NCBI GenBank assembly: GCA_013820875.1
Contig: JACDHS010000013.1
Coordinates: 1 to 59,034 of the forward strand
Reading direction: 5' to 3'
DNA: 59,034 bases
Source: Verrucomicrobiota bacterium
Lineage (GTDB): Bacteria > Verrucomicrobiota > Verrucomicrobiia > Limisphaerales > JACDHS01
How positions within the stretch are numbered: the first letter of the stretch is position 1; each line of letters opens with the position of its first letter. Shown here piece by piece: positions 41,087 to 45,237 of this stretch. Under the pieces are notes generated by a model. It made no database searches and was not told the DNA's origin. It was given only the letters and a program-made list of their open reading frames with translations. Position numbers and translations under genes: made by a program.

Positions 41087-41821
41087 ATGCAGACTATGAA
41101 CTCGCGGTTTTCCAGTTCCATTCTCCAAAATCGTTTGTCAACTGCTCTCCCGGTCTTGTTGTTTCTGTTCGTTCTGGCCGGACCATTAGTGGCCTCCGAT
41201 CGCTATGGACTGACGAACCGCCTGGACTCCGTGGCGTTGCTCGCTCCCCCGCCTCTTGAAGGTTCGGCAGAGTACAAAGCAGACATCGCAAGCGCACGGG
41301 CAGTGTTCAACGAACGCACTCCCGGCGATGAAGCCCGCGCCATCACACTGCAAAAGCTTATCATCTTCAATTTCACACCAGCGATCGGAGACTTTTTACA
41401 ACCGGGCAAATTTCCGAAGACAGAAGCTTTCTTTGACAACATGAAACCGGAAATCAAACCGGCTATTGACGCTCCAAAGGATCACTGGAAACGGATCCGC
41501 CCGTACGACGTGGACAAGAAACTTTGGCTCGGTGAACCGGAATCGAGTTTCAGCTATCCCAGCGGTCACGCGACGGTCGGGATGATCCAGGCTTTGGTCC
41601 TGGCCGAATTGTTTCCGGACAAGCGCGAGGCGATCCTGGCAATTGGCCGCGACTTCGGATGGGCCCGTGTGGTGATTGGAAAACATTTCCCGACAGACGT
41701 TTACGCCGGGCGCGTTCTTGCCCAGGGAATCGTTCGCGAACTGATGGCCAGCCCCGAATTTCAGAAGGATCTGGCCGTAGCCAAAGCCGAACTGCAAGCG
41801 GCGCTGAATAATTCGAAATAG
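41087..41821 (+). CDS. Exported class A non-specific acid phosphatase (PAP2 family)
   Basis: A 244-aa protein with a signal peptide (~residues 18-37, LVASDRY). It carries the three-part signature of the PAP2/class A acid phosphatases: K131-x6-R138-P139, P158-S-G-H161, and R194-x5-H200-x3-D204. The usual Ser before R194 is Ala, a minor deviation. Class A enzymes release phosphate from organic monoesters in the periplasm. No neighbour suggests a particular substrate; the next genes are convergent on the other strand. Confidence 0.9.
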   Translation: MQTMNSRFSSSILQNRLSTALPVLLFLFVLAGPLVASDRYGLTNRLDSVALLAPPPLEGSAEYKADIASARAVFNERTPGDEARAITLQKLIIFNFTPAIGDFLQPGKFPKTEAFFDNMKPEIKPAIDAPKDHWKRIRPYDVDKKLWLGEPESSFSYPSGHATVGMIQALVLAELFPDKREAILAIGRDFGWARVVIGKHFPTDVYAGRVLAQGIVRELMASPEFQKDLAVAKAELQAALNNSK

Positions 41822-41825
41822 ATCT

Positions 41826-42599
41826 TCAACCGTAACCACTGCGGCCACCGCTGGAAGGTTCGGGAATGACGGAACCGAATCCACCCGCGCTGCTGCGACG
41901 CAGACCGATCATCGCAATCGCCCGTTGCCATAACATTTTGAAATTGGATGGAGGAATGACCTTCAGCGGTTCGGCCATGCTGACGGAACGATCACGATCG
42001 TAGGAAAAAAGTTCAATCTTTGCGTCCTGCCATCGCAAAAGCACGTGGGCCAGGTCCGACGCCGGCCGATGCATTCCACCCCTTTGAAATAGCAGGACGC
42101 GACGGATCCCGTGGGACAATAAAAAGTTCGCCGATGGAAAATCCTGTGGAAAGACCACGGAACGATTGTCGAATTTCCCCGGTGTGGGAGAAATCGCCCC
42201 TGCGCGATTGGAATCGAGCAGGAAGGCTGGCGGAGCATTCGGAGGAAGGTGCGTTTCCAGTAATCTTTCCGCACCCGCCATCAGCATTTTTTGAGTGAAA
42301 CTGACATCCACCAAAGTTAACGCGAGCCCATGCTTACGCATCCCGGAAGCTGAATTGAACAGGGGGACAGGCCGATAACCATCCTGCGCCAGCGCGATAC
42401 CAGTGCGCACGGACAGGTCGCCGGGTAAATCAATCACGATCGCGGTGCCCTGATCCTGTTCAATGTCGATCCGTGGCCAATCAATGCTCGTTGAGGGAGG
42501 CATTACCGTCTCCATTTCGGCGAAGAGCACCGGTTTCGCCCAACGTGACCAGATGGAATCCGATGGAGCCCAAATATTAAAAAGATGAGAACCGTTCAT
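41826..42599 (-). CDS. Uncharacterised protein of the ATP-grasp/DUF350 operon
   Basis: A 257-aa soluble protein of unknown function, third in a minus-strand operon. Its start overlaps the ATP-grasp stop (ATGA), so translation is coupled. Segments such as GTAIVIDLPGDLSVRTGIAL and VVFPQDFPSANFLLSHGIRR suggest an alpha/beta fold with parallel strands. The C-terminal ~30 residues are Gly/Ser-rich (SSAGGFGSVIPEPSSGGRSG), a possible flexible tail or modification target. There are no membrane spans and no signal peptide. Its strict coupling suggests it works with the ATP-grasp ligase, perhaps as substrate-binding partner or acceptor; that is inference. Confidence 0.75.
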   Translation of the reverse strand: MNGSHLFNIWAPSDSIWSRWAKPVLFAEMETVMPPSTSIDWPRIDIEQDQGTAIVIDLPGDLSVRTGIALAQDGYRPVPLFNSASGMRKHGLALTLVDVSFTQKMLMAGAERLLETHLPPNAPPAFLLDSNRAGAISPTPGKFDNRSVVFPQDFPSANFLLSHGIRRVLLFQRGGMHRPASDLAHVLLRWQDAKIELFSYDRDRSVSMAEPLKVIPPSNFKMLWQRAIAMIGLRRSSAGGFGSVIPEPSSGGRSGYG

Positions 42600-43846
42600 G
42601 CGACGAGTTGTTGTTGTTGTTTCGAAGGGTTGGCCACCAAGACTGCTATGTCCTGCGCTCGATGATTGATCAAGCCGTTGGAACTGATGCGCCCATAAGC
42701 TCCGGCAGCTCTTCCATCAATCGTATAGACGCCGATGCAGGGGAAAGTTTTTTCGTTGTTCAAAAACAGCGGTACCGGTTCGAAGCGGCGTTGAGCAATC
42801 CATTCATCAGGATCGCGACGCGCGGCTTTCCGAATGCTCTTCCATTCTTTCTCATCGGTTGCGCCATACAGGCCGATGCTTTCACCGACACGCCCCAGCG
42901 CGGGTTTCAAAACCCAGTCACGTTCATTGCTCCAGTCCACCTGCGAAAGAGCGGCAGTCTCCGGCAACAACCTGCGCCAGGCCGGAGCCTTTGTTGCAAG
43001 TTGGTTCCAGACGATTGGCAAACGTTTGCTTTGCGTAAGCAGAGCCGTCGCCGGATTGCACAGCGGCGTTTCGCTCCCGTGAAAGAAATGAAACCAATCG
43101 CATCGCCGCGGAAGATTCGGCAGCCATTCCGCAGGGAAAAAGCGAAAAACAAAATCAACCGGTCCGTTGAACCAATCGCTTGCAACAGATGCTTTTCCAT
43201 TGGCCCAGCGAAGATGATCGGGTGCGACCAGCACAGCTTGAATGCCGCGGTGTTCGAGTTTTTTCGCGAGAAAAACCATCACCTGACGATCATCGGTGAA
43301 CGCCGTCGCATGAACGAGCGCAACGATGCGATGTTCCCGGGCCGTTTCTGCCATGGCATCCGCCAGCATATCGGCAGGGCTGGAAAAAGAGGTGCCTGGA
43401 TATTGCTCCGAGATGAGAGAGGTGAATCCCGATGCCTCGACAAACCCACCCGGCACATCGGTGTTCGCTTCGGAGATTTTCCAACCATGCGTGGTAAAAT
43501 GAAAATCGAACCGCATGATTCTCGCGGAACCAGCAGAAGGTTTTGACTCGGAAACCTGTTCGAAAATCTTGCGAATGGAACGTGGGAAACTCAGTTGCTT
43601 GTGCAATGAAGGTTTGGCGACCAGTTCCGCTTCAATGGCCATGGTTTCCGATGCCAACTCTTCTGCCAGTAGAGATATTTCCTGCCAATCGGCGTGGTTC
43701 AGGATCAGCGGAAATGGGCAGAGGGTCGAAACGTCTTCGACCTGTGGATCCCATTTGCAGCATTCGAAGATGGTGCGATGCCGAATCTGCGCGAACAGAG
43801 TCGGCGGCAGGGGTTCGACCGTTTGCCACGGAAGGTTCACGCCCAT
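42596..43846 (-). CDS. Glutathionylspermidine synthase-like ATP-grasp ligase (YgiC/YjfC type)
   Basis: A 416-aa protein of the GSP_synth preATP-grasp/ATP-grasp family without the amidase domain of true Gsp. Recognisable blocks: RFDFHFTTHGWKISEANTD followed by VPGGFVEASG, DWVLKPALGRVGESIGLYG (glycine-rich ATP loop), and DEWIAQRRFEPVPLF. The family forms amide bonds between a carboxylate and an amine using ATP; in these stand-alone forms the substrates are unknown. It overlaps the membrane protein gene upstream by 10 bp and the uncharacterised gene downstream by 4 bp. ATP-grasp members linked to DUF350 proteins have been described as possible peptide- or lipid-modifying systems. Confidence 0.85.
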   Translation of the reverse strand: MGVNLPWQTVEPLPPTLFAQIRHRTIFECCKWDPQVEDVSTLCPFPLILNHADWQEISLLAEELASETMAIEAELVAKPSLHKQLSFPRSIRKIFEQVSESKPSAGSARIMRFDFHFTTHGWKISEANTDVPGGFVEASGFTSLISEQYPGTSFSSPADMLADAMAETAREHRIVALVHATAFTDDRQVMVFLAKKLEHRGIQAVLVAPDHLRWANGKASVASDWFNGPVDFVFRFFPAEWLPNLPRRCDWFHFFHGSETPLCNPATALLTQSKRLPIVWNQLATKAPAWRRLLPETAALSQVDWSNERDWVLKPALGRVGESIGLYGATDEKEWKSIRKAARRDPDEWIAQRRFEPVPLFLNNEKTFPCIGVYTIDGRAAGAYGRISSNGLINHRAQDIAVLVANPSKQQQQLVA

Positions 43847-44637
43847 GGTCCTTTGAAAAACAGCACCACAGCACTAATGACAATGTAAAGGGCGGCAGGC
43901 ATTGCTCCGTAGATGAATGTTTCTGAGGAGGGACGATCGGTTCTCGGCAGTGTCATTTTTTCGAACGGTATTGCCGCTCCCAATACAAACAACACCGGCC
44001 ATCCGGTTTTAACAAAATCTTCAGCAGTTGCCTCCGCGGATACCCAGTCGCCGGCCGCAGCCCGGCCAAGGATCAAACCAATCGCCACGAAGAATCCGGC
44101 CAACCGCACTCCTGCGGCCGGATCGCGCTCGATCGTAACGGTATCTGCCAGTGAAGTGAACAGATGCAGAAGAATCCAAAGCAGATAAAAAGTTCCCGTG
44201 GCCAGAGCTGCGGTAAATACCACAACCCACCAACCCGGCCCATCGCCAATGTTGCCACCAGCAAAACATAATGTGATTCCCAACAACGCTCCGGATACAG
44301 CATAGCCTGCCGCTTTGTTTTTGCGCTCGATGACATCGTCCCGCGCACTCAGGCCGAGAAAGCCCAGGGCACTACGAGTCAGGCCAACCCATGCGGAACC
44401 CATGAGCATGTATAACATGATGTACTGCCCATCATCACGCACATCGTGCGCAGCAAAGCTTTTAAGGACACCCAACAGGACCAATGCGGCAAGGAGAGGT
44501 GTCAGAAATAGACTCGACCGATCGACTACATTTGAGGAAAGGTGCGCAACTGTGGAAGCTTCCCAATACCACTTGATCCAAGTGATCGCGCCAACCACCA
44601 AACAAATGATTAAAGCAAACGTTTCGTCGGGGGACAT
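43837..44637 (-). CDS. DUF350-like multi-pass membrane protein
   Basis: A 266-aa integral membrane protein with about eight hydrophobic spans arranged as two similar halves (AAGYAVSGALLGITLCFAGG in the first, GVRLAGFFVAIGLILGRAAA in the second). This matches the duplicated DUF350/YjfL-like family, which often accompanies YjfC-type ATP-grasp ligases. It is first in the three-gene operon; its stop overlaps the ATP-grasp start by 10 bp. A channel or lipid-associated role is conceivable, but nothing in the sequence demonstrates it. Confidence 0.75.
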   Translation of the reverse strand: MSPDETFALIICLVVGAITWIKWYWEASTVAHLSSNVVDRSSLFLTPLLAALVLLGVLKSFAAHDVRDDGQYIMLYMLMGSAWVGLTRSALGFLGLSARDDVIERKNKAAGYAVSGALLGITLCFAGGNIGDGPGWWVVVFTAALATGTFYLLWILLHLFTSLADTVTIERDPAAGVRLAGFFVAIGLILGRAAAGDWVSAEATAEDFVKTGWPVLFVLGAAIPFEKMTLPRTDRPSSETFIYGAMPAALYIVISAVVLFFKGPWA

Positions 44638-45237
44638 CGTTGGCCGATATATGGGGACGGCTCAGAACATGCGTCAATCTGAAAGTAAGTAACTGATCAG
44701 CACGGGGCGCGATTAAAAGCAAGTCGTGGAAAATCTGTCAATACTGCGATGGAAGGGGGCCAACCACGCCACTTTTTCGTTCTGTTTTGGACACCTGGTT
44801 GGCCAACCCACCTACTTTTTCGTTCTGTTTTAGGCACCTGGTTGGCCAACCCTGCTACTTTTTCGTTCTGTTTTGGACACCTAGTTGGCCAACCCTGCTA
44901 CTTTTTCGTTCTGTTTTGGACACCTAGTTGGCCAACCCTGCTACTTTTTCGTTCCGTTTTGACGGCAAGTTGGCCAACCAGGGTTCTAAAACAGAACGAA
45001 AAAATGGATAAACAGCCCGTTTTCCTTACTTTTGGGTTATTCTCGCGGGAATTTGGGTGGAAAAGGGCCATCCGTAGCCGATTAAAACCCATGCACAAGA
45101 TTCCGCCAAGTCTTGGAGTAGACCGCAGGGCGGCGTCCAAGATCTGGCAAAAATTCATCACCCATTTTTAATCTACACCCAAATTCCTCTGTACTGGGTT
45201 CTCTGATTGGCAGCGGCACAAATCTTTTGTTAAGCTC
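44638..45237. other. Intergenic region holding the 43-bp minisatellite
   Basis: 600 nt between the divergent membrane protein and pseudopilin genes. It contains the tandem array at 44758-45006. The frame at 44749-45171 reads through the array because 43 bp is not a multiple of three; I do not accept it as a gene. 45007-45237 shows no recognised feature. Confidence 0.6.
44758..45006. repeat. 43-bp tandem repeat with inverted terminal copy
   Basis: Five copies of a unit containing TTGGCCAACC, CTACTTTTTCGTTCTGTTTT and GGACACCT occur at a 42-43 bp spacing (CGTTCTG or its variant at 44779, 44821, 44864, 44907 and 44950). At the end, TTGGCCAACC (44973-44982) is followed by the reverse complement of the unit core (AAAACAGAACGAAAAAATGG), so the array can fold against its last unit. 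Units are nearly identical in the last three copies, which means recent expansion. No spacers exist, so it is not a CRISPR. Confidence 0.9.

Follow-up and report, generated by a model that had tools for sequence, protein, structure and literature searches.

Among the relatives of the ligase considered here is GspSA, which phosphorylates a peptide C-terminus that is then attacked by N1-spermidine, with Glu391 binding the spermidine (PMC6272389). Its Ser337 has been reported to assist attack by the amine. The E. coli ligases YgiC and YjfC are annotated in RefSeq as peptide--spermidine ligases, a name that goes back to Pederick 2023 (cited in PMC12568646); in the literature searched, we found no native protein substrate named for ligases of this type, and Pederick 2023 may have proposed YgiB/YjfM. 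Moreover, Psp-associated operons have been described that comprise DUF350, ATP-grasp, DUF1190, DUF2491 and a K+ channel (PMC11237479). Hence, the earlier note on this DNA, which took the present locus for the best candidate for an undescribed enzymatic system, is not supported in this respect: ligases of the YgiC/YjfC type already carry a name, and operons uniting DUF350 and ATP-grasp genes are on record.

On its minus strand the window (that is, the whole stretch of 59,034 nucleotides analysed) carries three overlapping genes whose identities, as first read from the letters alone, are borne out by open reading frames and Pfam matches: (i) 43837..44637 encodes a double-DUF350 membrane protein of 266 residues (two tandem copies of PF03994; 31.9 bits vs. 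a cut-off of 26), (ii) 42596..43846 encodes a GSP_synth-type ATP-grasp carboxylate-amine ligase of 416 residues, recognized by its structure model and by PF03738 (88.8 bits vs. a gathering cut-off of 29.3, the match spanning residues 51-394 only), and (iii) 41826..42599 encodes a 257-residue protein, hereafter the third protein, which does end in the Gly/Ser-rich tail seen before, RRSSAGGFGSVIPEPSSGGRSGYG. The order along the strand is DUF350 (44637..43837), ATP-grasp (43846..42596) and third gene (42599..41826), with overlaps of 10 bp (43837-43846) and of 4 bp (ATGA, 42596-42599); such overlaps alone do not show stoichiometry, so that the strict stoichiometric expression once read from them does not follow. 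The E. coli YjfC operon likewise has a DUF350 gene, a single one in contrast to the double DUF350 of the window. Like the operons of PMC11237479, the cassette joins DUF350 to a glutathionylspermidine-synthetase-like ATP-grasp in one operon; unlike them, it is a set of three genes with no other recurrent neighbour. Membership of a Psp operon was considered and rejected, PspA not recurring among the neighbours.

Searches with the third protein in Pfam, NCBIfam, PHROG and PADLOC gave no match, and neither did a profile-based sequence search of the PDB; a scan of genome contigs with the single protein from the window returned nothing, so that an alignment-based scan was needed. The latter, run over one genome per GTDB species, yielded 131 matches reaching from bacteria to Bathyarchaeia. 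The view that the third gene belongs to no recognisable family is thus to be abandoned: the family is large and widespread, and only uncurated. The record labels of the best 80 of these 131 relatives, which were retained for locus analysis, include Verrucomicrobia, Planctomycetota, Clostridia, spirochaetes, Cyanobacteria, Anaerolineae, Deltaproteobacteria, Omnitrophica, Endomicrobium and the termite-gut archaea Bathycorpusculum. Within the window's own order, a search of 293 genomes recovered 19 true homologues, the window included, along with a few weak matches that were judged to be non-relatives.

Comparison of these loci establishes the gene set and its linkage. The species-genome scan employed motifs of the third protein only and hence did not select for neighbours; nevertheless, among the best 80 of the 131 relatives the ligase is present at 78 loci and DUF350 at 69, several of the remaining loci lying at contig ends. 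The order DUF350-ligase-third gene is kept, except at one locus (L096) with the third gene ahead of the ligase, and no neighbour is widely shared at these 80 loci besides the three genes. In the window's order, the same 19 of the 293 genomes have both a strong match to the window-type ligase and a third gene, and none has just one of the two, some of the ligases being fragments at contig ends, and in a phylum-wide sample four genomes contain both. Such co-occurrence counts do not represent independent events, owing to common descent and physical linkage. When third genes without the ATP-grasp ligase were looked for, contig-end copies aside, just two were encountered: a broken gene in G411 of the phylum-wide sample, with no window-type ligase, and the gene at 5913-6671 of L117, the only intact copy with upstream sequence but without a ligase, of which none was found in the 1.3-Mb MAG assembly. 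The tail of this L117 protein keeps GGFG and ends in -RF instead of Gly. Chance can be dismissed as the source of the three-gene arrangement, which recurs in dozens of genomes from many phyla.

The AlphaFold model of the ligase (pLDDT 94.4) has YjfC, YgiC and GspSA as its best PDB matches, and the top Foldseek hits are the E. coli YgiC/YjfC structures 7uk6, 7uk8 and 7uka (E-values 8e-21 to 9e-19, TM ~0.7). Residues R112, D114, E126, N128, K274, K314, Q352 and R386 are invariant. Among these, R112, D114, E126, N128, K314 and R386, unchanged in 55 homologues, align with R316, D318, E330, N332, K533 and R598 of GspSA, which we take, both in numbering and in role, to be its ATP/Mg catalytic residues. 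The ligase thus has in common with GspSA the fold of the synthetase domain and the ATP/Mg-site residues, and it shares fold and aligned catalytic residues with YgiC/YjfC as well. Unlike GspSA, it is devoid of the N-terminal amidase domain and scores 34.7 bits vs. a cut-off of 882 for the NCBIfam equivalog; no evidence was found for glutathione as a substrate of the window ligase.

The cassette also differs from E. coli in the partner of the ligase, a DUF1190 protein there taking the place of the alpha/beta protein found here. Across 71 homologues the third protein exhibits a mean column identity of ~35%, its 230-residue core is conserved along the whole length, and W10, W20, K22, D129, R132, D144, N145, R146, D153 and S156 are invariant. 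The AlphaFold model (mean pLDDT 87.6) shows a confident alpha/beta core for which no confident structural match was obtained (best Foldseek E-value 0.03 in the PDB and 0.008 among viral structures; best VIA-align Z-score 4.0), a result that does not show the modelled fold to be new. The N-terminus, MNGSHLFNIWAPSD, contains no lipobox and no visible export signal. The DUF1190 profile, which represents YgiB/YjfM, matches none of 18 family members, and hhalign does not align the cores. What the third protein does share with YgiB/YjfM is a C-terminal G-[FY]-G...G tail. Two further roles were considered for the third protein and discarded: that of a ubiquitin-like or Pup-like modifier, an idea arising from the C-terminal Gly, as the model shows a larger alpha/beta domain and no further gene recurs; and that of a Cys amidase partner as in GspSA, as neither Cys nor His is among the conserved residues.

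The tail comprises residues 235-257 (41829..41897, minus strand; RSSAGGFGSVIPEPSSGGRSGYG-COOH), and the conserved C-terminal residues for which we looked in homologues are indeed there: G239 (99%), G240 (97%), F241 (94%) and G242 (99%) stand out among the 71 sequences, GG[FY]G occurs in 69 of them, and 64 end in Gly, with four of the other seven ending in Ala. By comparison, none of 1062 neighbouring background ORFs has GG[FY]G among the 35 C-terminal residues, though spurious ORFs among them make this a rough control. Residues ~221-257 mostly have lower pLDDT in the model, falling below 50 at 235-240; hence, judging by the model, the tail is probably flexible yet conserved, as is the case for short recognition motifs. 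One copy (L036, 6953-7687) has an aberrant tail that is due to a frameshift or an assembly error, another frame reading ...SAGGFGAMVPEVTQSSGSIGGWG, the expected GGFG...G tail. At one locus (L118, the same gene as L041) the ligase is retained and GGFG is lost.

Similar tails, of the form R-x-G-[FYW]-G and usually with GG at the end, recur on other, unrelated partners of YgiC/YjfC-type ligases. In E. coli, the gene of YgiB (...RGGFG...RSMGG) adjoins that of YgiC, and the gene of YjfM (...RGGYG...HWGG) adjoins that of YjfC, so that an R-x-G-[FY]-G...GG tail stands beside both enzymes. In the window's order, 20 loci with canonical YgiC-type ligases were looked at, from which 17 lipoprotein-like partners were recovered; all 17 have R-x-G-F-G near the C-terminus, and many of these tails end in Ser. 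Of 12 plasmid and phage ligase loci chosen for diversity, 11 have a neighbouring protein with a tail of this kind, including those of Arthrobacter, Bacillus, Trichormus and two phages, with Azospirillum lacking one; GFG is not preceded by Arg-Gly in Bacillus and Trichormus. The Arthrobacter plasmid protein (L164:1868-2374; 168 aa, ending in TRGGFGGGAKGGGGHGG), which adjoins a GSP_synth ligase, is annotated as a tRNA-dihydrouridine synthase, an annotation that looks wrong. When the window family was compared with the lipoproteins in hhalign, no homology was found between the cores and the full profiles aligned at the tail only, in a short and statistically weak match (P = 0.06). The argument from the tail hence rests on its position and on its recurrence beside the same enzyme.

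Taken together, the comparison leads us to favour, with somewhat better than even confidence, the view that the cassette constitutes a minimal system of the YgiC/YjfC kind that amidates proteins at the C-terminus and has a new family of carriers. The third protein would expose its flexible tail, and the GG[FY]G motif would dock on the ATP-grasp ligase, making the tail a putative recognition motif that also supplies the acceptor carboxylate. With ATP, the ligase would activate the C-terminal Gly, its carboxylate becoming an acylphosphate in the way that GspSA activates the Gly of glutathione. An amine, either a polyamine (spermidine or, in this organism, homospermidine) or one like it, would then attack to leave a positively charged, amide-capped tail. 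The DUF350 membrane protein might serve as a membrane tether for either the polyamine or the modified protein. The earlier suggestion of a possible acceptor role for the third protein thus gains substantially by comparison, from the perfect co-occurrence with the ligase, from the conserved tail ending in Gly and from the like tails on the E. coli ligase partners, whereas the acceptor role as such is one that we infer. Against amidation stands the fact that a C-terminal Gly is not universal, neither in the window family nor among the YgiC-type partners, many of which end in Ser; the loss of GGFG at L118 beside a retained ligase, the weak tail match in hhalign and the Gly at the Ser337 position of GspSA (see below) count against it as well. 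Furthermore, the partners may reside in different compartments, because the YgiB-like lipoproteins are exported and no export signal is visible in the third protein.

The variability of the last residue is also what lends some weight to an explanation that we consider unlikely, yet the most serious of the rivals, namely that the tail serves for docking or regulation and recruits the third protein to the ligase (or to DUF350), with the ligase joining its amine to some other molecule, for instance a small peptide or a metabolite, that is bound or presented by the alpha/beta domain. The internal GFG is steadier than the final residue, especially in the Ser-ending YgiC-type partners, and the many invariant core residues suggest a binding or catalytic role of the third protein's own. 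However, the great majority of window-family tails do end in Gly, the very residue that GspSA activates in glutathione, and at 8 of the 12 cross-phylum plasmid and phage loci the partner ends in GG.

The identity of the amine is a separate matter, and it is rather improbable in our judgement that the tail receives an amine other than a polyamine (an amino acid, ethanolamine, or an aminated lipid or sugar) by a chemistry distinct from that of YgiC/YjfC. The window ligase is only ~16% identical to YgiC/YjfC in the structural alignment, and the position of GspSA Ser337, held by Thr in YgiC, is occupied by G133, an invariant residue without a hydroxyl group in a PGG loop; because of this invariant Gly, the amine or the geometry of its attack may differ from that of YgiC, as far as the alignment can tell. 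In addition, the window's genome has no match to AdoMet decarboxylase or nspC, so that the amine need not be spermidine. A polyamine is nevertheless favoured by the acidic pair D185/D186, which aligns with the GspSA region including Glu391 and is thus kept where spermidine is bound, and by a DS-family gene in the window's genome. The DS family includes bacterial homospermidine synthases. Three consecutive genes of phage Motura encode a homospermidine synthase, a lipoprotein with such a tail and a GSP_synth ligase, and clustering of hss and gss has been described as a potential for glutathionylhomospermidine (PMC9992855). The genome's own Spermine_synth-domain matches (L158 and L159) lie in very long open frames of 955 and 1129 aa, which probably encode multi-domain proteins.

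A ribosomal-peptide route, in which the tail would be a natural-product core peptide that the ligase modifies and a protease then sets free, is brought to mind by a short conserved tail with a variable Gly/Ser/Tyr-rich end beside an ATP-grasp ligase, but is very improbable given that only the three genes are widely shared, with no recurrent protease or exporter nearby, and that the 230-residue core is conserved throughout, unlike a usual leader peptide. A role in anti-phage defence was likewise dropped, PADLOC giving no match.

Beyond the window, it is tempting to speculate, with chances that we place just short of even, that polyamine C-terminal amidation of dedicated, tail-tagged proteins is a general modification in bacteria, archaea and phages, with YgiC/YjfC-like ligases all recognizing the same code (G-[FYW]-G and a small residue at the C-terminus) in the tails of several unrelated carriers, and with the window cassette as a minimal form employing a new carrier family. 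The latter would stand even if YgiB/YjfM have already been proposed as substrates. A short tail common to unrelated neighbours of the ligase provides a concrete and testable substrate candidate, and the question of substrates is widened to a large uncurated protein family with archaeal members. If true, prokaryotes would possess an amine tag for protein C-termini, comparable with the conjugation of SUMO with spermidine reported in eukaryotes (PMC12270671).

As to the surroundings of the cassette, a PAP2-superfamily phosphatase gene (41087-41821, plus strand) converges on it, with its stop 4 bp from that of the third gene, and an array of 5.2 copies of a 43-bp repeat (GGCCAACC...CTACTTTTTCGTTCTGTTTTGGACACCTAGTT) lies just upstream, at 44758-44980 of the window.
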